Source: a virus
Length of the DNA stretch: 39,330 nt
Strand: one strand, 5' to 3'
IMG/VR virus record: IMGVR_UViG_3300028843_000062
Location: 1 to 39,330 of that record
The notes below the pieces were generated by a model. That model worked only from the letters and a program-made list of their open reading frames with translations. It had not been told where the DNA came from and searched no databases. Within the stretch, counting starts at the first letter, position 1, and each line of letters opens with the position of its first letter. Shown here piece after piece: positions 8,159-39,178 of this stretch. A program made the translations under genes and the position numbers.

Positions 8159-8860
8159 CTAAAATATAGTCTTTTTGTAGGTCTCTTCAAAGTCACCAGT
8201 CTGAGCCTCTACCGACGGCTCTCTACCACCTGCCACCTTACCTAAGTTGAGAGTATCGTCGTCGGTAGAATCTGTGGAGCCTTGTATAACTTTATCGGCC
8301 TTCAGGAACTCTCCTGCTTCAGCCAGGAACTCTTCAAATGTAATATCTCCGGCCTCAAGCTTACGCTTGAATCTTGGTGGGAGGTCATTTTCAACTACCT
8401 CATCTGTTAGTGTGATACCTGTAGACTCGGACCATACAGCCATCTGTTCATTGCGAATCTCAAGCTCAGACTTGTTAGCCGATTTCGTAGCTATTTCTTC
8501 TAGCTCAGTCTCCAGAGCTGTTGTAGCCTCTTGCTCGTAGTCGTTCAGTTTTTCTCTCCAGGCGTCTGGATTCTCTTTCTTAAGCCTGTGTAATTCAGCT
8601 GCCTGAACCGCAGAGAGTTTACCACCTTGCGTTAGAGCGTGCTCCTGAAGACCCTCAGCTATAGCTTTCTGGCGTTTAGCTTCTTGCTGCGCCTTAGTAT
8701 AGCCAGCTTGTGTATCACGATAGCGCCGCTCTGATGTAACAGCGAATAACGTAGGCTCATCTAGATCTTGAGCTACGTCTTCTGGTAGAGTCCATTTGCC
8801 GTCTTCAGCCTTCGTCATCTGACTTACTAGTGTGTCTACCTTTTCTTTAAACTCGGACAT
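8159..8860 (-). CDS. Capsid scaffold protein
   Basis: A 233-residue, highly charged, mostly helical protein (long E/K/A/Q-rich stretch around residues 50-140, including LKKENPDAWREKLNDYEQEA), with an acidic C-terminal region and a short basic end (ETYKKTIF). Position and composition fit a scaffold that templates head assembly and binds the coat protein through its tail. It starts with a strong GGAGG site 7 bases before the ATG. It is the first gene of the leftward late operon, driven by the divergent promoter region at 8903-8939. No protease motif is seen within it. Confidence 0.75.
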   Translation of the reverse strand: MSEFKEKVDTLVSQMTKAEDGKWTLPEDVAQDLDEPTLFAVTSERRYRDTQAGYTKAQQEAKRQKAIAEGLQEHALTQGGKLSAVQAAELHRLKKENPDAWREKLNDYEQEATTALETELEEIATKSANKSELEIRNEQMAVWSESTGITLTDEVVENDLPPRFKRKLEAGDITFEEFLAEAGEFLKADKVIQGSTDSTDDDTLNLGKVAGGREPSVEAQTGDFEETYKKTIF

Positions 8861-9796: not shown

Positions 9797-11389
9797 ATGT
9801 TATGTAATATCGCGCGTGACGATTTTGTCGCTTTGTATAGCGAGGAGCTATGGAAGACCCTAACTACTCAACCAGAAGATTTCAATACCCTTGTACAGGA
9901 CTATTTGCCCTCAAAACTGTGGCGCTTAAACAACTTGTACTCTATTATTGACAAAGCTGGTGACCCCATACCGTTTGTCATGAATCGAGCTCAACTAATT
10001 GTATATGCTGCGAGTCTCGAGCACTCACGGCTTATAATACTTAAGAGTAGGCAACAGGGGATTTCGACTTTCTGGCTTATATCATACTTCGATGACCTGA
10101 TTACCAAGAGTAATACCAACTGCGGGCTTATGGCACAGGGCAAGGACGAAGCAGGGACTTTGTTAGAACGGCTGAAGCATGTGTGGAATACTCTTGATCC
10201 ATGGGTAAAAGAACTCTTTGAGCTACGAGTGCTCAAAGACAACTCCGCAGAGTTCAAGCTGTCTAATAATTCAACCATGTTCATACGTACCTCATTCCGT
10301 TCTGCGACCTTACAGAGGTTACATATCAGTGAGTTAGGCAAGATAGCTAACAAATACCCAGAACGAGCTAAGGAAACCAAGACTGGCACATTGCAAGCAC
10401 TGGCTCCAGGTAATACAGGGGTCATTGAGTCTACTGCAGAAGGTGTTAACATGTTTAAGTACATGTGGGATGCTAGCATTAAACAAGATGGGGCAGGGGT
10501 GCTAGCAGGTAAAGATTTCAAGCCTGTATTCCTATCATGGCTAGACGATCCTGATTGTGTCGAATTCGAGACCCAGTATCCTGATCAAGAAGAGCTAGAT
10601 TACTTTGCACGGCTAGAACTAGAGTTAGGGCGTGTTATATCAGTAGAGCAACGTAACTTCTGGATTGCCCAACATCGAGAACTAGAAGGTGACATACACC
10701 AGGAATATCCAGCTACTCCCGAAGAAGCCTTCACTGCAGCGCAGGACGGCACTTACTGGGCTAAGCGCTATCTTGAGTGTGTAGTTCGCGTAGGGCATAA
10801 GAAGCCGTATTCTGAATTGTATGACACTAACTTAGATGTTTATGTAGTGCTAGATGCCGGTCGTAGTGATTATATGGTGCTAGTGTTTTTTCAAGTGTGG
10901 AGAGGACAGATTCGAATCATCTACGAATACTACAATACTGGAGAATGGTTAGGGCACTATGTAACTAAGGCCGCTGAACTAAAGGATGAGTTTGGGTGGG
11001 ATATAGTACATTGGTATCTTCCTCATGATATGGGTGTGATTGATCTAACCCAGGAAGAAAACAAAACTAGGGAGGAGATACTTCACGACCTCGGAGTGTA
11101 CAATACTACCATCTTAGCCAAGAATTCAAGGTCGGCAGGTATAGAAGAAGTCAGACAAGCCTTTTCTAATATCTGGATTAGTTCTGACTGTGTGTATATC
11201 GAGCAGTGTTGCCTTAACTATACTAAAGACTGGAATCCGCTACTTGAAGTATGGCGCGATGAACCTAAGCGTAACCGCTGGTGCCATGGCGCGGATACTG
11301 TTAGGTACATGATACAGACTGTAGCGTATCATTTGAGTGACGGCGAGAGCGACGATTATAATCCAGTTGTTAGTGGTATGGCACTATAA
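9797..11389 (+). CDS. terL: Terminase large subunit
   Basis: A 530-residue ATPase-nuclease that pumps DNA into the prohead. The ATPase half has a Walker A-like motif KSRQQGIST (residues 83-91), the usual phage form with K-S-R-Q-Q-G, and a Walker B ending LHISE (175-179). The nuclease half starts with VYVVLDAGRSD (acidic Asp353), followed by LPHDMGV and a late GADTVRYM motif, giving the metal-binding acidic set of an RNase H-like nuclease. GGAG lies six bases before the ATG. It is transcribed with the early-block strand, opposite to portal and capsid genes, which is less common. Confidence 0.95.
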   Translation: MLCNIARDDFVALYSEELWKTLTTQPEDFNTLVQDYLPSKLWRLNNLYSIIDKAGDPIPFVMNRAQLIVYAASLEHSRLIILKSRQQGISTFWLISYFDDLITKSNTNCGLMAQGKDEAGTLLERLKHVWNTLDPWVKELFELRVLKDNSAEFKLSNNSTMFIRTSFRSATLQRLHISELGKIANKYPERAKETKTGTLQALAPGNTGVIESTAEGVNMFKYMWDASIKQDGAGVLAGKDFKPVFLSWLDDPDCVEFETQYPDQEELDYFARLELELGRVISVEQRNFWIAQHRELEGDIHQEYPATPEEAFTAAQDGTYWAKRYLECVVRVGHKKPYSELYDTNLDVYVVLDAGRSDYMVLVFFQVWRGQIRIIYEYYNTGEWLGHYVTKAAELKDEFGWDIVHWYLPHDMGVIDLTQEENKTREEILHDLGVYNTTILAKNSRSAGIEEVRQAFSNIWISSDCVYIEQCCLNYTKDWNPLLEVWRDEPKRNRWCHGADTVRYMIQTVAYHLSDGESDDYNPVVSGMAL

Positions 11390-29068: not shown

Positions 29069-29362
29069 ATGAATGAACAAGCTATACAGAAGAAGATTAT
29101 AACCCACTTAGAAGCTAATGGGTTTGTTGTCGTTAAAATTATAACAGCTAATAGAGCTGGTATACCTGATATAATAGCTTGCAGCCCTGAAGGACAATCG
29201 TGGGCTGTAGAAGTAAAGCAAGAGAAGGGGCGCTTAAGTAAGCTACAGCAAGTCTGGCTTGACCGATTCAAGCGAAACAATGCTGTAGCTTTTTGTTGCT
29301 ACGGCTGGCAAGACTACCTAAGGCAATTTAGTCAAGCACAAGCAGGGTACCATCCTCTTTAG
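29069..29362 (+). CDS. VRR-NUC domain nuclease
   Basis: A 97-residue nuclease. AGIPDIIACSPEGQSWAVEV then KQEKGRLSKLQ gives the PD-(D/E)XK core: Asp34, Glu48, Lys50 and Gln60. Small stand-alone VRR-NUC proteins are common in phages and are thought to resolve branched DNA. AGGAG lies eight bases before the ATG. The 3' end overlaps the convergent virion gene by 35 bases. Confidence 0.9.
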   Translation: MNEQAIQKKIITHLEANGFVVVKIITANRAGIPDIIACSPEGQSWAVEVKQEKGRLSKLQQVWLDRFKRNNAVAFCCYGWQDYLRQFSQAQAGYHPL

Positions 29363-32300
29363 CTATAGCTTTAAACCCAGAGTTGTACAGCATACGTTTG
29401 TCTATCTTAGACAAGTTATCAGGATCAATCCCTAGCTTCTCTCTTACCACCTCGTCAGTCGTTATGCGATGGCGAGGTATCCCTTCTGCAGGTACAGAAC
29501 CCTCTACAGGTGTAGTGTGATAGCCACCTGCCTTATCTTTGTAGGTCTGAATCTTAATAGTGCCAGTACCTGCCGCTTTCTCTGCAGCTGCTGCTCTCTG
29601 TAATGTCTCCATAGCTTTAAGTAACTCAGCATCATCCTTAGCTACAGCCATTGCTTTCTTTACAGTAGCTTGATCTAATGGAGTCTCTAAGAACTCTGCG
29701 ACCTTGTGAACTAGTGCAGCACTATTAGCATTCTTAGTTCCTATATACCGACTTACGTAGTTCCATACTTTAGCCATAGTTGAGTACTGTGCTTTCTCTA
29801 CGAGATTCTTGGATAGCCCTTGTGATGGCGAAGTAAGCTTAATACCACCAGACACGTATGACAAGTTAACGTCATTAGTATACACCTCACTCAAGCGGGC
29901 TATAGCCTGCTGCAGCTCTTTGCCGTCCTTAGTTAAGAACTCATAGTTACTTAGTTCCTTATCTAGCTCAGGAAACTGTATAGCCCTAAAGCCACCCTCT
30001 GCTCCAGCTGTGTGCTTGTTAACTAAGGCATCGACTATATTAGTTTCTATAGCCTGCCAGGTATTATGATCTAGCTGCTTCATTAGCTCAGTGTAAGTGC
30101 CGTCACTAGCAACGCCATACTTAACGAAAGCTTTAGCCAGTAAAGTAGGGTTAAGACCTTCTTTACGTATGTACTTAGCTAAGACAGTATTTGTTGTCTG
30201 CTTCATAGTAGTATAGCGGACTCTAGCTTCAGCCCACTGGCGTAGCCATTCCTGGCCACCCTCAGTACGAGACATAACAGACTCTATCTCATTATCTATG
30301 GTCGCCAACGTCTCACTGAAGGCATCCATAGCTGACCTATTAAGCTTACCTACAGAACCTAACTTATTAATAGTCTGACGCAACTCTATTAAGTCATCAA
30401 ATGTACGTGACTTAGCTAACTTACCTATCTTTTCAATAAGTGCAGCAGCCCTAGCAATCTTATTAGGGTCGTCTAGTGTTCGGCCAATACTATCTAGTAG
30501 CGGATTAAGCGCAGTGGTCTGTAGGTTGAATTGGTAACCTTGCCCAACTAAGTCGCTACCTGAAGTTCTAGTGACATCGTAGAAAGTTTTCTCTGTCGCT
30601 ATATACTCATCTACATTATTACGCACAGTTAACACTAGGTCATCAGAGCTAAGCTTGGAAGCTACCTCTTCTAGCACGTCATCAGCGCGCTTGCCTACTT
30701 GACGTGCAGTAATCACAGATGCTCTAGCGTCAATGGCACCTGCAGCTGCTACTATATTTTCACCTCCTGCTTTAGTGATAGGTATAATAGCTAAGGCTTC
30801 TTCTTTAGGTGATAGGACTTGCTGCCCCTCAACTTGTATTGGGCCTATGCCAGTTTTCTTCGGTATTACTACTTGACCCTCTATCCCATTAAGACGTTTC
30901 CACCTAGCTACGATTTCTTCGACTTGATCATCAGTTAGGCCTGTAGTGTCCTTCAGCATCTCATACGCTGCATCAAGGTTACCATCTTTGAATTGCTTAT
31001 ATGCGTGAGATATTTTCTTCCATCCTGCTTTAGCTATAAAGCCAACGGGTACCATAGCTACATCAGCTACGACACTCATTTCTGCCGCGCCAATAGCTTT
31101 ATCAGCGGCCATTTGCCAGGTTACTGTTTCATCCTGCCGTATAGCAGCTGAGGCGTAGTCTATCTCATCGCCGAACATGGCACCAGCTGCTGTATAAGCG
31201 GTTATAACACCGAACTTAGCTAAAGTAGAGAAAGCTCGACCACCAGGATACGGCAGTATTAGAGGGTCTACTACAGCACCAAGTTTACCAGCAGTAGCTA
31301 CACCTGCAGCTGTACCCGCAGCACCACCTATGCCTTCGCCAGCATACCTAGATAAGGTGGTTAAGAATCGTGGAGTAGCATTAACTAGATTGCCTTGACC
31401 GTCACGTACATACCACTCATCAGCAGGCACACCATCCTCTCCTGTACCATAAACTAAGTCGTAGCCTTTTTCTTGTCCAAGGGCTATAACTTTAGCCGCT
31501 GCCTCTTCTTGTAGCTTCTCATACGTAGCTGTAGCGCCTGCTACACCAAATTTAGACTTAGCCCAGAGCCAAGGCCTATCGACATCATAGAGCTCTACCA
31601 TATCTGCTACATCTTGCCTAATGAGCTCTGGATCACGTCCATAAGCCTTATCATAGGCCGCAGGGTTCGCATCTTCTAAAGCTTTAGCATATATAGCATC
31701 CATGCCACTTGGAGTGACAGGGTTAACCTGGAGCTCCTCTGCATATCTCTTAACGGTCTCTTCATCTAGCTCTGTATAACTAGTAGTACCGTCCATGGTT
31801 GGCACATCCGACTCTATCTGAATACTAGACTCAGCGAAGCGATCACCACTTAGTTCTTTAAGCCACTCCTCATATTGATACTTAGTAACAGCTTCTTGGG
31901 TTATACCCTGGTTATAGGCTTGCTCAGCCCACAGAGGCTCTTCATGCTCTTCTATAGGATTGTCTTTTAGGTATGAGTCAACTTCACCAGGCCGGAACCC
32001 TTTCTCGAATGCATCAACCCTAAAGTCTTGCGTATTAGGATCAGCGTAAGCTGGAATAGACAGTGTACCTATAACAGCTGCAGCAGGCAAGATAAGCTTA
32101 AGATAACCGTCTTCTTCTTTAATCGTACCCTTGAACCGACTAGCTAAAGACCTAAACTGCTTATTAGTCTTACCTCCTGTAGAATAAGCAGCTTGTGGTC
32201 CCGCTCCTCTATATAGCTGATCGACACCACTTGGCTTAACTGTAAGCCAGACCTCACGTTTACCTTCATTGATTGCCTTGATTATCTCTAGCTGCATACC

Positions 32301-35057
32301 TTGTTTCTGAAATGGTACAGCTAATTTGTAATCGTCGTGAGCAGGAAATCTCTTAAGAGGTGGTAAGTCTTTAGCCATCTCTCTAACTATAGTACTTAGC
32401 TTAACACCAGACATGTCTGCTGGACTCAAGTGAGCATTCACCCGCCGCTCTTCTTCTACAGCTCTTGCATATACTTCTCGTTCAGCAGGTATGTGACTAC
32501 CACTAACTATGCGATCAATACGTTGAGCCTCAGTGACATGCGTATCTTTAGCTATTGCTCTAGTAGCATCAACAACGTTATTGGCTACAGACTTATAGGC
32601 CTCCTTTAGCATGTACACAGTGTCTGCTAACTCAGCTACTACATCCTTAGGCTTATCTGGATTTACTGCCTCTAATGCCCTAAGTAATTCAGTTGACGGA
32701 GTGTCACTATTGTGAGCAATACCCGAACGGTACTCTTGCCTAAGTGCAGGTGGCAAGTCCGTTACATTTAGTTGTTCAGCTAACACAGCCGCAGCACGCC
32801 CTGCGTTTGCACTCGCAGGTACGCTGTAGCCCTCAGGCATATAGAGGTCACTAAAGTGGGCATTAACTTCAGCTCTGAGTTCAATGTTGTGGCCATACAC
32901 ATCACTTATGTTAGCTAGGTTCGTACTTGATATAGTAGCGCCACCTTGCCATTGGTCTATTGCGTCAGCTTTTTCTTTCGTCATCTCATTCTGAATATCT
33001 GACTGTATCTCTTGAATGCGATGAACGTCAGGCCTAGGCGAATCTGTTCTAGTGTGGAACACATAGTCTTCAGCCTCAGGTCTAGTGCTCCAATGTGTAT
33101 TGTCAGAGTTAAACTCTTTAGTGTCTACTGCGCTATTCTTATAGATATTCACTGCATACGTAGCATCATCAGTATCAGGGAGAGAGTAATTTCTATACGT
33201 ATCTGGCTCAAATGAATACGTCTGACCTTGTGGCGCTAGCCTAACATTACTATTAGGTATAGCTATTTCAGTATTGCCTTCATCTGCATGTTGCCGTACT
33301 CTGTAATAACCTTGTGCTGTACGAGCTGCTCTATCAGTATCTGCCTGCGATACAGCATTAGCATTATATGAACTAAAGAAATCTATCATCTCACTATGGT
33401 TATTGGCATTAGGTGGCGGTATATTTGCGTTAGACGCTAGGCTATTGACTTCGCCTTGAACTTCTCGCATTAGCTCATCTATAGTAGCTATAGTATCACC
33501 AACAGGCTCCATAGTAGGTACTTGTATGGGCGTCTCGCTAGAGCCAGACAGTAAATCATGTAAGTCACCAATAAAGGTCTCTGGGCTATCCATTAGGTCA
33601 TCTAAGCGCCCGTCAGCATGCGCTAGTTCAACGCGCTCGATATACTCAGGTAAATCTTCTAGTGTCATGTCTTCCATGTCATCACCAACTGACTCACCTA
33701 ATTCTTTAAACCTAGCTAACTGCACATTACCCGCTGCATTGCCGTTACGCAACTGCCTAAGAGCACTGGCATAAGCTGTATTACCACGGTCAGTCGCGAT
33801 AGTTATCATATGTTGTATATTACTATCAGTATTAGCTAAGCGCCTATTACCAGGCTGATTGAGCCCAAGGCCATCTGCTATAGTATTAAAATCGGCATCC
33901 ATAGCTCTATCAAGGTTGTCTAGCGCTACATTGGCTTCTTGCTGTACAGCGTCCATCAACCTGTTAGCTTCTTGTAATAAGCCAGGTGGGTGGTTGGCTG
34001 TATCTAGGCGTATAGCGTCAATTACATCATCTAGTTCACCAACATCCATCGGCCCCTCTATATCAAACCTGCCCATGAACTCATCATACTCTTCTTGTAC
34101 ACTAGCCGTCTGCATTTCTTGCTGCGTTAGCTGTTGCGTAACAGGTGTGGTTGGCTCGCCTCTGTTTATACGGTTAGCTAAGTCCTGTAACTCACGGATA
34201 GTTGAATCAGGCATATCACCATTGTCTATCCCAGCGCGTATAACACCTTCTAATTCAGTAATACCAGGAATTGGTACAGTCGGATCATAAGCCTGTATGA
34301 TGTTACCAAACTCAATTTGCGCCTGATCTAGATTTACCTGATTGTCTATGTTATTCAATCCACCAGGCCATAGGTCTTCTATAGCTCCCTCGAAGTCATC
34401 AGCTACATCAGCTCCCTCAGAGGCCCTTAGGTTTCCCGCCATGGTTTCTACACCTAAGCGAGTGTAGTTGTCTGTGTCAATACCATAACGACTAGCATAG
34501 TCTGAGACTACATCAGCAGCTGCTTCTGGCATGGTCGCAGAATACCTAGTGTTTATACGAGCATATTCATCAGCGAATGCTCCAGCTACTTCGTGACCTT
34601 CATTATAGTCTAGCTCACCAACAACTGCGTCTAAATCCAACTCCTGGCCAGGCGCTGGAGCTACATCGTAGTTACCATATAATGTACGTAACTCAGTCTC
34701 TCTTGGAGTCGCAGCTGGTGTGACTGGTGGAGTAAACACATTCTGTACTGGCAAGTCAGGCTGGCCTTTTATCTGCACTTGTTCATAGCTATCAGCTCTA
34801 GGGTTGTTAGCTAAGAATTCTTCTAGGTCAGCTTTATTAATCTTCGCATCAGGTGACTGCTCCAACAAAGGCCCTACGCCAGACTGCTTAAGCTCAAGAG
34901 TCTGTACATTCTTGCCTTTAATGTTATTAAGCATGTCACTCTGAGTCATGTCTTGCTTAGGTAGCTTACCCATAGCGATGTCTAACTGAGACTCAACTTT
35001 AACTTCTTGCTCAATAATGCCAGCGCCAAGGTCCAATAGTTTAGGTAGTAAAGCCAT
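29328..35057 (-). CDS. Very large (1909-residue) internal virion/polyvalent protein
   Basis: A giant protein encoded right after portal (TAATG overlap). The N-terminal 600 residues are acidic and helical. Around residues 660-690 STRPEAEDYVFHTRTDSPRP and HRIQEIQSDIQ recall the EIQSD domain of phage polyvalent proteins, and residues about 900-980 (FPAHDDYKLAVPFQKQGMQL) fit its continuation. A hydrophobic stretch (LILPAAAVIGTLSIPAYA) lies near 984-1003 and a Gly/Ala-rich segment (GEGIGGAAGTAAGVATAGKL) near 1230-1306, candidates for membrane passage. The last 500 residues are helical. It is most likely ejected with the DNA. No lysozyme or polymerase motif was recognised. Confidence 0.75.
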   Translation of the reverse strand: MALLPKLLDLGAGIIEQEVKVESQLDIAMGKLPKQDMTQSDMLNNIKGKNVQTLELKQSGVGPLLEQSPDAKINKADLEEFLANNPRADSYEQVQIKGQPDLPVQNVFTPPVTPAATPRETELRTLYGNYDVAPAPGQELDLDAVVGELDYNEGHEVAGAFADEYARINTRYSATMPEAAADVVSDYASRYGIDTDNYTRLGVETMAGNLRASEGADVADDFEGAIEDLWPGGLNNIDNQVNLDQAQIEFGNIIQAYDPTVPIPGITELEGVIRAGIDNGDMPDSTIRELQDLANRINRGEPTTPVTQQLTQQEMQTASVQEEYDEFMGRFDIEGPMDVGELDDVIDAIRLDTANHPPGLLQEANRLMDAVQQEANVALDNLDRAMDADFNTIADGLGLNQPGNRRLANTDSNIQHMITIATDRGNTAYASALRQLRNGNAAGNVQLARFKELGESVGDDMEDMTLEDLPEYIERVELAHADGRLDDLMDSPETFIGDLHDLLSGSSETPIQVPTMEPVGDTIATIDELMREVQGEVNSLASNANIPPPNANNHSEMIDFFSSYNANAVSQADTDRAARTAQGYYRVRQHADEGNTEIAIPNSNVRLAPQGQTYSFEPDTYRNYSLPDTDDATYAVNIYKNSAVDTKEFNSDNTHWSTRPEAEDYVFHTRTDSPRPDVHRIQEIQSDIQNEMTKEKADAIDQWQGGATISSTNLANISDVYGHNIELRAEVNAHFSDLYMPEGYSVPASANAGRAAAVLAEQLNVTDLPPALRQEYRSGIAHNSDTPSTELLRALEAVNPDKPKDVVAELADTVYMLKEAYKSVANNVVDATRAIAKDTHVTEAQRIDRIVSGSHIPAEREVYARAVEEERRVNAHLSPADMSGVKLSTIVREMAKDLPPLKRFPAHDDYKLAVPFQKQGMQLEIIKAINEGKREVWLTVKPSGVDQLYRGAGPQAAYSTGGKTNKQFRSLASRFKGTIKEEDGYLKLILPAAAVIGTLSIPAYADPNTQDFRVDAFEKGFRPGEVDSYLKDNPIEEHEEPLWAEQAYNQGITQEAVTKYQYEEWLKELSGDRFAESSIQIESDVPTMDGTTSYTELDEETVKRYAEELQVNPVTPSGMDAIYAKALEDANPAAYDKAYGRDPELIRQDVADMVELYDVDRPWLWAKSKFGVAGATATYEKLQEEAAAKVIALGQEKGYDLVYGTGEDGVPADEWYVRDGQGNLVNATPRFLTTLSRYAGEGIGGAAGTAAGVATAGKLGAVVDPLILPYPGGRAFSTLAKFGVITAYTAAGAMFGDEIDYASAAIRQDETVTWQMAADKAIGAAEMSVVADVAMVPVGFIAKAGWKKISHAYKQFKDGNLDAAYEMLKDTTGLTDDQVEEIVARWKRLNGIEGQVVIPKKTGIGPIQVEGQQVLSPKEEALAIIPITKAGGENIVAAAGAIDARASVITARQVGKRADDVLEEVASKLSSDDLVLTVRNNVDEYIATEKTFYDVTRTSGSDLVGQGYQFNLQTTALNPLLDSIGRTLDDPNKIARAAALIEKIGKLAKSRTFDDLIELRQTINKLGSVGKLNRSAMDAFSETLATIDNEIESVMSRTEGGQEWLRQWAEARVRYTTMKQTTNTVLAKYIRKEGLNPTLLAKAFVKYGVASDGTYTELMKQLDHNTWQAIETNIVDALVNKHTAGAEGGFRAIQFPELDKELSNYEFLTKDGKELQQAIARLSEVYTNDVNLSYVSGGIKLTSPSQGLSKNLVEKAQYSTMAKVWNYVSRYIGTKNANSAALVHKVAEFLETPLDQATVKKAMAVAKDDAELLKAMETLQRAAAAEKAAGTGTIKIQTYKDKAGGYHTTPVEGSVPAEGIPRHRITTDEVVREKLGIDPDNLSKIDKRMLYNSGFKAIAKEDGTLLVLD

Positions 35058-36916
35058 TAGAATGCCTCATTAGTATTGGTTGGAAGTTTGTTTTGTGCAC
35101 TCATATTCTTACTACTATCACCACCTGACGGCATAGCATTCTGCCCTGCAAGCATAGCTGCTGCTTCTTCATCCTCAGGGTTACCAGATAGCATCTCAGA
35201 AGTTTGCTCAAAGATAGCACTAATCTCTGGTGCGTACTTAGTCTTCATAGTACGCAGAGTAAGGCCAGCTATCTGGAAGAAGCCTGCTGGATTAACCTGA
35301 GCCATCAGTTGACCCATCTGACCAGACATAACAGTCTCTAGCATAAGCTGCGTACGCTCATCTTCGTCATTATAGTTAACAGCTTCAATACGAATATCAT
35401 GCTTCTTAAATGTTAGCTCAGTACCCTCTTCTGGTATAGGAGCGAATACTAAAGCACCATCTTCAGTAACTAACGGGGTGTCGTCTTCAGGGTCGTATAC
35501 CTGCTCGAAAATAGGTTGCATAATAGGCTCACCAGTGTTAGGGTCCATATCACCGGAGAACTCTAACATAGGCCTATTGAGCTCTATAAAGCGTTGCCCA
35601 ACTAACTCATCTGATACACGTAGCACTTGCTCTGCTGTAAAGTACTGTTTGATAAGTGCAGCAACGTCTTGGCCAAGCAGCTGGTAGAATGACTCAATGC
35701 GTACAGTTAGATACCGTAACGCCATAATTGTCGCATTCTGTTGCAGCTTAACCTTACGGCCAGAATCAGAAGCAAAAGCCATACCCAAGAAACTATCATT
35801 AATGTTAAGTACACGCTGTATGCGGTCAAAAGCGTTATTGATAATCTCATACTGTTCGATAGCATCAGCACCGAGGTTCTCAACCTTAAGACCTTTTAGT
35901 GATTTAACAGGTATAACACCATTCACTCTATTAACAGCATCAGTGAACTTTGCTATGTCTTCTATAGAATTAGTTTCTACAAAGACTTTCTGTGAGTTAG
36001 CCATTAGTTGTAGCTTAACCAGGGCCTGATTAATAGCCTTCTGCGTTTCTAGCACCTCATGAAATACACCGTAGTATTCTTTATACGTAGAGGCTTGCAA
36101 TTTAGTTACGCGATAGTCCCACTTAACTTCTTTAAAGGTTATCTCTTTACGAGCTAACTCTACTTCACTAGACCAGTATATAGACCAGCGCTTACCGTCA
36201 TCGTCTTCTACAACAGTATGAGTGATCAAGAAATTGTCAAACACTTTATAACGTCCGTAGTAACCTCTATGACCTAAGCCGTTGTAGTCATAGTCTGCTT
36301 CTGGTATTGATAGGTGGTTATGATTTGACTCTAGCTCTGCAACCTTAGCTTTGCCAAACATCTTGACCACAGACTCCTTAGGAAGCCATTTAAAGCGATG
36401 TAAGAATCTTGCATCTGAATAATCAACCTCAGTGCTTAACGGGTCCATAATGAGCTCATAATCGGGCACGTAGTCGATTTTAATCCCGTATATAGGCCTA
36501 CCAAATTGATCACGTTCTCCAGTCTTATATGGCTGTTGCATCGTGCACATAAGGCCAGATATGATACCGCCTAACTTAATGCTATCACCTTGTACTTCCA
36601 TGTTATTAGCATTAAAGATAGACGCAATAGAATCAGTAACTAATGTTGCTGTTGTTATATCTGCTTGTTGTACAGGATCAGCTACAGCAGTATTAACTGT
36701 AGTAGAGTAGTACCCAACAAGCATGCGTGCGAACAGCTTGATAACATTAAAAGTTTCTAGCGGTTGGCCACGAGCTGCTAGCACAGCTGCCTGATCTGCA
36801 GTCCACTGACGGTTATGGTAGAAGTTCCATGCTTCTTCGGCTTCTTCTCTAGAGTCAACAAACTCGTCATAACCTAACCAAAAACTATCGCGTAGTGTTT
36901 CTATATCAGTCTTCAT
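35057..36916 (-). CDS. Portal protein
   Basis: A 619-residue protein. The start at 36916 (MKTDIETLRDSFWLGYDEFV) is set by GGAGGT seven bases upstream, not the upstream ATG at 36949. Early WNFYHNRQWTADQAAVLAAR followed by GQPLETFNVIKLFARMLVGY is typical of portals of short-tailed phages, as are DYVPDYELIMDP, KLQLMANSQKVFVETNSIED and the long helical region with FLGMAFASDSGRK. It forms the dodecameric DNA gate. The C-terminus is flexible and Met/Ser/Asn-rich. Confidence 0.88.
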   Translation of the reverse strand: MKTDIETLRDSFWLGYDEFVDSREEAEEAWNFYHNRQWTADQAAVLAARGQPLETFNVIKLFARMLVGYYSTTVNTAVADPVQQADITTATLVTDSIASIFNANNMEVQGDSIKLGGIISGLMCTMQQPYKTGERDQFGRPIYGIKIDYVPDYELIMDPLSTEVDYSDARFLHRFKWLPKESVVKMFGKAKVAELESNHNHLSIPEADYDYNGLGHRGYYGRYKVFDNFLITHTVVEDDDGKRWSIYWSSEVELARKEITFKEVKWDYRVTKLQASTYKEYYGVFHEVLETQKAINQALVKLQLMANSQKVFVETNSIEDIAKFTDAVNRVNGVIPVKSLKGLKVENLGADAIEQYEIINNAFDRIQRVLNINDSFLGMAFASDSGRKVKLQQNATIMALRYLTVRIESFYQLLGQDVAALIKQYFTAEQVLRVSDELVGQRFIELNRPMLEFSGDMDPNTGEPIMQPIFEQVYDPEDDTPLVTEDGALVFAPIPEEGTELTFKKHDIRIEAVNYNDEDERTQLMLETVMSGQMGQLMAQVNPAGFFQIAGLTLRTMKTKYAPEISAIFEQTSEMLSGNPEDEEAAAMLAGQNAMPSGGDSSKNMSAQNKLPTNTNEAF

Positions 36917-36917
36917 G

Positions 36918-38564
36918 TTACTTACCTCCAGTAGACGCACGTAGAGCATCTAACTGATTACGCACGTCATCAGTTAACACAGTATCAGCAGCTTGTTGTT
37001 GTGTTGCTGCTTGTGTCGGCCTATTAGCTCGTGGGTCAGCAATAGTTCTGCCTGACATAGTATTATCAACTAACTCAATGCGTTCATCTAGTGCGTCTAG
37101 AACATCTTGCAACTCATTAGAAGTCATGCCAGTACGGTAGGCTATAATGTACGGGTCATTAGTTTGTACGAGTGTTTCGTATTGACTCCTAACCTGCTCT
37201 AGGCTAGTACGTAGCTGAGCTAGTATAGGACCACGCTGCTGACCTAATGAACCAAACTGTTGTACGAAAGACCGCTCTTCGTTTGCTGGCAGTGTAGCAC
37301 CAAATAGTGCGTTACGAGTTAGGTTGCGATAAGCCGCGTAAGCTGCCTCTTGCTCTACGCCTTCAGTGTTATTAGATATGTACTTAGCTACACCCCTAAA
37401 CACTCTATCTATTATACCAGTTTGATCATCAGTTAGCTCACTAGACGCATCCCCTAAGGCAGTCAATTCGTTTATTCGCTGTAGCGTAGCCTTATCTGCT
37501 GTTGTTAATTTAGCGTCAGAGAAGTCTTCTAGCTTAGATATCAGCGGCTCTACCTTAGCTCGCTCTTTGAGATTCATCTCAGTGTATGGCTTACCTAATA
37601 TGTCTAGCTCATTAAGCTGTTCGCGTACTACATCTGCCGCTTCCTGTTTACGTATATCTGAAGGCCGGCTAAACTTAGTATTGTACTCATCCATAGCTTC
37701 ATTGAATGCTGCATTATAGCCAGGAGAACCTGGCTGTATGCCCTGATCTGCAATAGTACGTTTAGCGTAAGCTTCAGCTTGAGTGAGACCATCAGACAGT
37801 GAACCACGACGACCTGCTAACTTCTTATCTGTAGCTTCGTCATAATACTTATCATAAGCGGCCTGGAACTCTGGTGACTTAGGATCAACGTCACGACCCA
37901 CTTCATTTCTAGCCCTACGGAATGCATCGCGTCCAGCTGGATTAGAGTCGTAACCTAAAGAATCAAGCATCAGCACTTCTTGTGCAGTTTTCTGTCGCGT
38001 CAACTCTTTAGTACTAGCATACGCTTTATAGTCAGTACCACCTTTCCACTTATCTAAGTTAACAACTATAGTACTACCATCCGCCTTGGTAGCTTTCATA
38101 AAACTAGTAGAGGCTGGGCCGTCACCAGTAAGTATGTCTTGATCAACTTGACCTGACTGTTCTATCAGCTCAGCGTCGTCTTGTGTGAGCCTGTCAAGCC
38201 TAATTACATCCTTGTACAGTGTGCTACCGTTCTTTTTAAAGTCACTCAGCATTGTATTGATATACCGGATTTCACCAGTAGCATCAAATCGCTCAAAAGC
38301 TGTATATGTGGCTTTAGCATTGTTAGCTCTTAATAGCTGTTGCTGCTGAGCTTTCAGATTCTCTAACTCTAACGACTGGATATCGGCCTTGTTAGACAGG
38401 TCTTTATCCGTAAGTTTAGTGGCACGCAACCTAGCTAACTTCTGGTCCCCTTCTTCTTTACGTGCCCTAGCATCAGCTCTATCTGCTTGCTGTGAAGACC
38501 TAACAGAAGCAGAGCCTTGAGCTAAGCCTAATCCAGTTGATGCTTGCGCTAATAGATTAGCCAT
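36918..38564 (-). CDS. Internal virion protein, large helical
   Basis: A 548-residue protein starting MANLLAQASTGLGLAQGSAS, then Gln/Lys/Arg-rich coiled-coil segments (ELENLKAQQQQLLRANN). It has repeated YDKYYDEATDKKL- and YNAAFNEAMDEYNTKF-like units and a Gln/Ala-rich tail. It lies between a second virion-type gene and portal, with GGAGAG before the ATG and a one-base gap to portal. The composition and place match ejected core proteins of podoviruses; there is no enzymatic motif. Confidence 0.65.
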   Translation of the reverse strand: MANLLAQASTGLGLAQGSASVRSSQQADRADARARKEEGDQKLARLRATKLTDKDLSNKADIQSLELENLKAQQQQLLRANNAKATYTAFERFDATGEIRYINTMLSDFKKNGSTLYKDVIRLDRLTQDDAELIEQSGQVDQDILTGDGPASTSFMKATKADGSTIVVNLDKWKGGTDYKAYASTKELTRQKTAQEVLMLDSLGYDSNPAGRDAFRRARNEVGRDVDPKSPEFQAAYDKYYDEATDKKLAGRRGSLSDGLTQAEAYAKRTIADQGIQPGSPGYNAAFNEAMDEYNTKFSRPSDIRKQEAADVVREQLNELDILGKPYTEMNLKERAKVEPLISKLEDFSDAKLTTADKATLQRINELTALGDASSELTDDQTGIIDRVFRGVAKYISNNTEGVEQEAAYAAYRNLTRNALFGATLPANEERSFVQQFGSLGQQRGPILAQLRTSLEQVRSQYETLVQTNDPYIIAYRTGMTSNELQDVLDALDERIELVDNTMSGRTIADPRANRPTQAATQQQAADTVLTDDVRNQLDALRASTGGK

Positions 38565-38566
38565 TA

Positions 38567-39178
38567 TTACTCTCCGTCTTTCTTGTTGAATACATCGTAT
38601 AGCTGCTCAGCTACATCGACTGTAGTTGTAACGGCTTCCCTTAGTGCTGGCCCAGCTGCTGAAGCAGTAGCTGATGCTACTCTACCAGCTTCAGTAGACC
38701 TGTCTGCAAGAACACCACTAACATTAGATGGGTTATTACCTAGCCCTATATTCAGGAAGCTGGCTTTTTCTTTAGCTACTTCCATTGGAGCATCTGCGCG
38801 TATCTGAGCTCGTGCAGCTGCAGACTCTAGAGCTACACTAGTTTCTGTCTGCGCAGCTATGCCACTAGTCGCTATACCTCGTTGAGCTAGATTCTCACGT
38901 AAGCTAGTCATAGCCACATTCTTTTCTTTCTCAAAAGCTTGCAAGCCTTGCATAGTCCGAAGAGTAGGAGTGAGGTTATTATAGTACTCAGCTAAGTTAT
39001 CTTCAAGAGGCCCATAGGTCTCTTTCCACTCAGCGTACTGTTCCTTTTCCCATGCTAACTGCTCTGCGTTAGCTTTCTCTTGTGCTTTAGCTGCATCGTC
39101 TGCAGCACCACTAGCCGAGACAGCACCGTATATAGCTGTACCAGCACCGATTACTGCAGCTGCTGTTGTGACACTCAT
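38567..39178 (-). CDS. Internal virion protein, Ala-rich
   Basis: A 203-residue protein whose N-terminus (MSVTTAAAVIGAGTAIYGAV) is a Gly/Ala-rich hydrophobic segment, followed by AADDAAKAQEKANAEQLAWE. This is the usual pattern of small internal virion proteins analogous to T7 gp14, which enter the host outer membrane during ejection. A GGAGGT site lies six bases before the ATG, which overlaps the upstream gene's stop (TCATGA). Confidence 0.7.
   Translation of the reverse strand: MSVTTAAAVIGAGTAIYGAVSASGAADDAAKAQEKANAEQLAWEKEQYAEWKETYGPLEDNLAEYYNNLTPTLRTMQGLQAFEKEKNVAMTSLRENLAQRGIATSGIAAQTETSVALESAAARAQIRADAPMEVAKEKASFLNIGLGNNPSNVSGVLADRSTEAGRVASATASAAGPALREAVTTTVDVAEQLYDVFNKKDGE

Follow-up and report, generated by a model that had tools for sequence, protein, structure and literature searches.

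Positions 1 to 39,330 of the IMG/VR virus record IMGVR_UViG_3300028843_000062 (39,330 nt, hereafter the window) contain, at 29328-35057 on the minus strand, an open reading frame (ORF) with an ATG start that encodes 1909 amino acids (aa). We favour, with moderate confidence, the interpretation that this 1909-aa protein is a gp16-like ejection protein delivering as cargo a GNAT-fold domain that carries the motif EIQSD; the protein is probably shot into the bacterium together with the DNA. It would be the third and largest ejection protein of a short-tailed phage of the KF-1/VPMS1/PH1 type. Its conserved core (residues about 1078-1908), with a Gly/Ala-rich segment, would, we infer, leave the head with the DNA, insert into the membrane and form the DNA-ejection channel's inner-membrane section. 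The N-terminal half, made of a module at residues 22-61, an acidic linker and the EIQSD domain at 604-1000, would be the delivered cargo, and the domain may act early in infection as a group-transfer (acyltransferase-like) enzyme whose substrate would be a host protein or RNA.

An initial annotation, made from the sequence alone, had presented the gene as by far the largest and as coupled to the portal gene. This is indeed the case: the ORF is the longest of the window (the next one encodes 1347 aa), and its ATG overlaps the portal stop codon (TAATG). To that annotation we add the span of the EIQSD domain with its helical insert, a GNAT-like predicted fold, and a conserved ejection core in the C-terminal half.

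Identification of a divergent EIQSD domain

A degenerate 24-base DNA pattern for EExQSDWH identified at least 120 stretches in viral contigs, and 120 out of 120 lay in an open frame. The canonical EIQSD profile was built on 101 of these 120 ORFs (nine were dropped for too little sequence after the motif, ten as redundant), and the canonical alignment on 49 of 57 trimmed candidates, seven being wrongly or incompletely trimmed and one a duplicate. This profile matched the ctXG1253 orthologue of the 1909-aa protein (E = 1.1e-11) and the PH1 orthologue, ANY29564.1 (1299 aa), which has the same core and, in the same place, an intact EIQSD domain (hidden Markov model (HMM) match, E = 1.6e-26). The PH1 protein differs from the 1909-aa protein in having no long linker and a shorter insert, and in keeping the H after QSD, as do nine of nine PH1-type rows.

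Three long relatives, L128, L129 and L130 (1907, 1788 and 1634 residues between stops), have the same domain in a similar layout and form, together with the 1909-aa protein, the window-type group. A profile of ten PH1-type rows, from which these four were excluded, matched residues 619-691 and 917-960 of the 1909-aa protein in colinear order with E = 3e-8. No decoy, out of 328 made by shuffling or reversal, came ahead of the four window-type proteins. In profile-profile comparisons, the window type matched the PH1 type with E = 1e-8 and the canonical type with E = 2.8e-6, and the PH1 type matched the canonical type with E = 2.3e-22; the probability of reversed and unrelated controls was 0.6 or less. 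On sequence profiles, the link between the 1909-aa protein and the canonical set runs through intermediates. On this evidence the two matching pieces make up one domain, spanning residues about 604-1000 and interrupted by a mostly helical insert of about 205 residues. The initial annotation had noticed an EIQSD segment and its possible continuation; these (683-687, and near 915-960) proved to be parts of this single split domain.

No relative was found when viral contigs were scanned with residues 620-1019, and a tblastn search of phage records with residues 620-1006 yielded chance-level matches only (E of 6 or worse). No Pfam family was found for the domain with the 1909-aa protein, with six canonical pieces, or with 49 members (among the best 25 of 47 chance-level families). 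The phrog_7348 label 'endolysin' on three canonical pieces was set aside: this family covers 2564 positions, and the label is not evidence of lysis activity. The open-licence literature searched contained no statement of a fold or an activity of EIQSD, nor of a cysteine signature in ejection proteins.

Conserved residues and predicted fold

Among 23 aligned rows including the 1909-aa protein, H655, E683, Q685, S686, D687 and G932 are invariant, and Y634, H668, R670 and Y958 nearly so. The columns of H655, R670, E683, Q685, S686, D687 and Y958 are also invariant in the 49 canonical rows, so that H, R, ExQSD and Y are common to the canonical, PH1-type and window-type rows. Because these polar residues are kept across all three groups, the domain would most likely be acyltransferase-like. 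The residue set suits a catalytic site, and the losses described below leave room for an altered or lost activity. Judged by its alignment, the 1909-aa protein is a divergent, non-canonical member: the signature WHQxG[RKQ]xxGY follows QSD in 102 of 120 canonical ORFs, and at this place the 1909-aa protein reads IQNEM.

AlphaFold2 (AF2) modelling of a 280-residue canonical member with 49 rows gave a predicted local distance difference test score (pLDDT) of 88.5 and a predicted template modelling score (pTM) of 0.82. The order of elements in this model is strand, strand, strand (EEIQSD), helices, helix, strand, helices, strand, strand. Foldseek listed 50 structures for it, none at E <= 0.001, of which 49 are what we take, in part from their titles, to be GNAT folds, with many repeats of ICL2 and SSAT. 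By the same assignment, all 50 rows listed by VIA-align were GNAT-fold (Z up to 8.5, with 126 residues aligned and a root mean square deviation of 3.3), as were the 50 listed on VIA re-alignment of the domain model of the 1909-aa protein (Z up to 8.2); both VIA lists re-rank Foldseek's own candidates. In the latter model most core blocks have a pLDDT of 75-94, some of 60-69, and the insert has 37-48 over roughly its first 80 residues and higher values afterwards. For the predicted fold, the weight lies on the agreement among many GNAT families rather than on Z alone.

The predicted fold and strand order are like those of GNAT-fold proteins such as the ICL2 C-terminal domain, AtaT, TacT, GCN5 and NatD. 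The differences are that no sequence similarity was detected and that the cofactor loop is not conserved. This loop, [QR]xxGx[GA], is the conserved acyl-CoA pyrophosphate loop of GNAT acetyltransferases; its lack of conservation means that cofactor and reaction may differ from those of standard GNATs. Sequence searches of solved structures yielded nothing usable, and no sequence link to solved GNATs. We conclude that the EIQSD domain has a GNAT-like predicted fold and may act like a group-transfer enzyme, and we do not file it as a member of the GNAT family. A search of a viral structure library gave 23 matches passing E 0.001; the named ones are large phage proteins, mostly uncharacterised, and some are annotated LPD, ART-PolyVal or LT_GEWL.

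A putative ejection-protein core shared by 29 phages

By tblastn, the core matched the large protein encoded downstream of the portal gene in 12 phage records, which include Edwardsiella KF-1, Vibrio VPMS1, Pseudoalteromonas PH1 and Dickeya Amaethon, and it was also matched in 25 IMG/VR loci. Leaving out L131, L134 and L145, which repeat VPMS1, KF-1 and PH1, the family comprises 29 distinct phages, the window's included. The gene order in the window is 203 aa - 548 aa - portal - 1909 aa, with a phrog_21132 'DNA ejection' gene and the 548-aa gene upstream, and the same order of ORF sizes was found in six of the six phage records compared (out of the 12; H3, H5-H8 and H10 were left out). In five of these six, the first base of the big protein's ORF is also the last base of the portal-position ORF; in the sixth, the two ORFs overlap by 4 bases. 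The portal-position ORF is labelled 'putative terL' in three of the six, and the gene of about 200 aa is annotated 'DNA injection protein' in VPMS1.

Ejection trios, in the parts of PMC8954989 drawn on here, consist of an outer-membrane protein of 181-240 aa, a tunnel protein of 431-982 aa and an inner-membrane protein of 609-1337 aa with conserved membrane elements. The window's proteins of 203, 548 and 1909 aa fit this size order, the third exceeding the published range. The initial annotation had read the hydrophobic and Gly/Ala-rich stretches as signs of membrane passage on ejection. The stretches are present, and a Gly/Ala-rich counterpart lies 627-882 residues from the C-terminal end in 32 of 32 family rows (three being duplicates), so this segment belongs to the core; the hydropathy, averaged over 19 residues, is borderline for a membrane helix (1.57 at 985-1003, 1.65 at 1324-1342). 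The Gly/Ala-richest 90-residue stretch is 1236-1325, with 40% G+A.

Gain, loss and relocation of the domain

Within the 29 phages, which we classed from profile and motif results, the motif is intact in 15, a remnant without motif is found in six, there is no EIQSD match in six (ct1fd225, L139, L146, L147, L148 and L152), and two sequences are cut before the motif (L132 and L142). The remnant, of about 110 residues, in which the EIQSD motif is lost, occurs in VPMS1, KF-1, Amaethon, L133, L138 and L150. In hhalign comparisons it matched the PH1 type with E = 2e-9, in an alignment of 53 columns that fall in the domain's second half, the window type weakly (3.2e-4, probability 39), and the canonical type not visibly (0.13). 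The proteins concerned, of the KF-1/VPMS1 type (L123, L124, L126, L133, L138 and L150), begin with this shrunken, motif-less remnant.

In L193-L195, from three Campylobacterota genomes, an EIQSD domain (motif at residues 1381-1426) comes after the same core, which was matched at E = 5.6e-56 to 8e-79. The core thus bears EIQSD at its N-terminal end in the phages and at its C-terminal end in L193-L195, and the domain has therefore been joined at both ends. None of the other 197 EIQSD ORFs searched contained the core.

Solo EIQSD proteins, 28 in number and 439-587 aa long, were also observed in genome contigs of bacteria, mostly Gammaproteobacteria, Thiodiazotropha among them (L187, L198-L202, L204-L206, L208-L213, L215-L218, L222-L229 and L232). 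Across the 14 solo chromosomal loci compared, no neighbour gene stood in a constant place outside the Thiodiazotropha loci. Two neighbour families recur beside the solo genes in L209, L212 and L216.

Cysteine depletion

The candidate ejection trio of the window (203, 548 and 1909 aa) contains no cysteine in 2660 residues; the 15 window proteins other than the 1909-aa protein, two of which are the smaller members of the trio, contain 57 in 6979. Of the 32 family rows of the big protein, 28 are devoid of cysteine and the other four have a single one. In canonical EIQSD ORFs we counted 28 cysteines in 135,183 residues, with 109 of the 120 ORFs lacking any, compared to 1136 in 172,205 for other ORFs on the same loci. 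When only ORFs of at least 800 residues were considered, 64 non-redundant EIQSD ORFs had 21 cysteines in 96,414 residues, compared to 83 in 33,012 for 33 others. For the ejection proteins of T7, N4 and P22 (n = 9) the count was one in 7,864 residues, with eight of nine devoid of cysteine, and for 21 other proteins that we chose from the same annotated regions it was 65 in 9,817.

Depletion is weaker in the EIQSD proteins of genome contigs (230 cysteines in 136,629 residues; 35 of 79 have none), and the 28 solo proteins have 199 in total, 2 to 11 each. The absence of cysteine is a strong trend, and no proof of ejection. Passage through the narrow tail and an oxidising periplasm may select against cysteine. 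By term search, the word 'cysteine' was absent from PMC12633501 (N4), PMC8954989 (ejection proteins) and PMC5512222 (Iyer et al.), and occurred once in PMC9509320 (SU10), in the methods. Some other structural proteins are likewise cysteine-free. One further cysteine-free protein of the window, of 233 aa (8159-8860, minus strand; phrog_24492, unknown function), is encoded on the same strand as the structural genes.

Comparison with known ejection and polyvalent proteins

The large proteins downstream of portal in KF-1, VPMS1 and Amaethon resemble the 1909-aa protein in the order of ORF sizes and in their C-terminal core, which is homologous at 29-31% identity; they differ by their length (961-1010 aa) and by an N-terminus that is the shrunken remnant. 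The gp16-type proteins of T7 and P22 and the N4 virion RNA polymerase are likewise the largest of an ejection trio and free of cysteine. They carry other cargo, a transglycosylase in T7 and an RNA polymerase in N4 according to parts of PMC8954989 and PMC12633501, and the 1909-aa protein is longer than the proteins of that kind described in those parts of PMC8954989. The searches made with the 1909-aa protein gave no match to T7, P22 or N4 ejection proteins.

The initial annotation had also pointed to phage polyvalent proteins, a class treated by Iyer et al. 2017 (PMC5512222), and this likeness was borne out in part: several of the large phage proteins in which EIQSD is found have LPD, ART-PolyVal or LT_GEWL annotation. 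LPD39 follows EIQSD in one of six canonical pieces scanned, and two of five plasmid matches sit in proteins annotated LPD23. Polyvalent proteins in the strict sense combine at least two domains of disparate activity in a single polypeptide; in the 1909-aa protein one enzyme-like domain was found. Iyer et al. describe their GNATs as RimI-like.

Layout of the protein and its genome setting

The features are listed in Table 1. An HMM of residues 1-61, made from the 1909-aa protein and L128-L130, matched L136 (2.5e-6), L143 (8.7e-5) and the canonical L065 (2.2e-6) and L030 (6.8e-5), remaining matches being weaker than 1e-3. No Pfam domain scored above cut-off in the 1909-aa protein, in which one enzyme-like domain and the ejection core were found. 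Tle3_C (Pfam, E = 0.051) and BamB (NCBIfam, E = 0.044) overlap the Gly/Ala segment far below cut-offs, and were judged compositional. Elsewhere in the window, a terminase large subunit (9797-11389; phrog_2, E = 1.1e-17) indicates, with the portal gene, a phage with a portal-terminase packaging system; other genes include primase/polymerase, DNA polymerase, single-strand binding protein, thymidylate synthase, exonuclease, helicase and ligase.

Table 1. Features of the 1909-aa protein and of the neighbouring genes in the window
Feature	Position	Strand	Basis and remarks
Putative gp16-like ejection protein, 1909 aa, EIQSD domain in N-terminal half	29328..35057	-	ORF; phrog_21759 match of core, E 1.5e-104; 12 phage records by tblastn
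N-terminal module, residues 22-61	34875..34994	-	Common to some other EIQSD proteins, PH1-type and canonical, by HMM
Acidic linker, residues 62-603, net charge -67	33249..34874	-	Variable in relatives; length and sequence unconserved in L128-L130
EIQSD domain, first part, residues 604-691	32985..33248	-	Conserved H655, R670, E683, Q685, S686, D687, also Y634, H668; strands in AF2 model
EIQSD motif, residues 683-687	32997..33011	-	Sequence
Insert in EIQSD domain, residues about 692-898, mostly helix	32364..32984	-	AF2 helices; longer in L128-L130
EIQSD domain, second part, residues about 899-1000	32058..32363	-	Profile pieces, AF2 model; conserved G932, Y958
Short hydrophobic stretch after EIQSD domain, residues 984-1003	32049..32108	-	Hydropathy; similar stretch in L128-L130
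Conserved ejection-protein core, residues 1078-1908	29334..31826	-	Homology to phage records and IMG/VR loci
Gly/Ala-rich hydrophobic segment, residues 1230-1345	31023..31370	-	Position conserved in family
Portal protein, upstream gene, stop overlaps start of 1909-aa ORF	35057..36949	-	phrog_156 portal, E 2.9e-79; TAATG
Candidate second ejection protein (gp15/gp20-like by position), 548 aa, no cysteine	36918..38564	-	phrog_21081 (unknown function); synteny
Candidate first ejection protein (gp7/gp14-like), 203 aa, no cysteine	38567..39178	-	phrog_21132 'DNA ejection', E 2.3e-53; phrog_598 'DNA ejection', E 6.5e-4

Alternative explanations

A number of results weigh against delivery of a GNAT-fold enzyme. 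The canonical profile gave the 1909-aa protein an E of only 0.006 when searched alone and 0.044 in a joint search, and with decoys present the protein was outside the top eight rows. It keeps 8 of 18 canonical invariant columns, the eighth, G753, being doubtfully aligned, and the W and H after QSD are missing, so activity may be altered or lost. Its domain model is only moderate (pLDDT 70.5, pTM 0.55), and the Foldseek list for this model is mixed, with Smr, SepF-like, EPSP synthase, MurA and ribosomal proteins besides some GNATs. For neither model did Foldseek give a PDB match at E <= 0.001 (best E 0.057, canonical model), and the TM-scores by query length of the 50 rows listed for the canonical model were 0.10-0.27. 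A VIA Z near 8 can, by the notes of the tool, mean a mere common arrangement. The GNAT loop follows the motif in 20 of 120 canonical, 3 of 11 PH1-type and 1 of 4 window-type sequences (shuffled rate 0.07). Neither a GNAT family nor LPD23 was among the Pfam matches listed for EIQSD members, and the 1909-aa protein had no match to a GNAT family at E <= 1; the sole acetyltransferase-named match, found in 1 of 49 members (E = 0.032), was to the maltose acetyltransferase capping motif, which does not belong to the GNATs. The absence of cysteine is also unspecific: 5 of the 21 other proteins from the T7, N4 and P22 regions, and 11 of the 33 other ORFs of at least 800 aa, have none either.

Part of this evidence would suit a GNAT-like domain that is not, or no longer, an enzyme, and that serves as a folding or docking unit binding another ejection protein, the portal or DNA, the conserved polar residues shaping the unit. 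We regard this as possible, with considerable doubt. The scaffold can persist without the motif, as the remnant kept beside the core in six relatives indicates, about ten of the canonical invariant residues are lacking in the 1909-aa protein, and the cofactor loop is not conserved. Against this, the conservation of H, R, E, Q, S, D and Y between the canonical and the window type, across very divergent rows, is typical of catalysis, and the domain occurs without the core, in the 197 other EIQSD ORFs and in solo chromosomal proteins. That EIQSD has another fold or chemistry, for example that of a hydrolase or nuclease using H, E and D, its GNAT likeness being a common alpha/beta arrangement, seems to us unlikely. 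The Foldseek values, a Z near the background level named by the tool and the lack of a sequence link to solved GNATs would fit such a case, but the rows listed for the canonical model were GNAT-fold almost without exception, with the repeats and the manner of assignment mentioned above, and the order of strands and helices agrees with GNAT.

Three relatives (H7, H8 and H11) carry the annotation 'tail tape measure protein', and an ordinary protein of that kind, or a passive core protein with no domain of interest, could be imagined here as well. We consider this highly improbable, given the gene order beside portal and DNA-ejection genes, and an alpha/beta domain homologous to polyvalent-type proteins. 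The initial annotation had named a purely coiled, passive core as the outcome of structure prediction that would speak against it; the mixed alpha/beta domain predicted is not merely that. Delivery of a GNAT-fold domain by a gp16-like ejection protein is the interpretation we retain.

Implications

Although widespread in viral contigs, the EIQSD domain has no Pfam family that our searches could find; the fold proposal, together with a defined set of residues, makes a direct test possible. The natural series of intact, gutted and absent domains within one ejection-protein family is a ready-made comparison. As a broader and tentative proposal, which we hold with reserve, EIQSD might be an unrecognised, widespread class of GNAT-fold enzymes, injected as ejection-protein cargo and fused to either end of the core. 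Some lineages would have lost or gutted the domain; elsewhere it would act on targets in the host or its defences during the first minutes after infection, and the absence of cysteine would mark the injected forms as opposed to their solo chromosomal relatives. Lack of cysteine may offer a simple way to recognise, from sequence, proteins that enter the cell with phage DNA.

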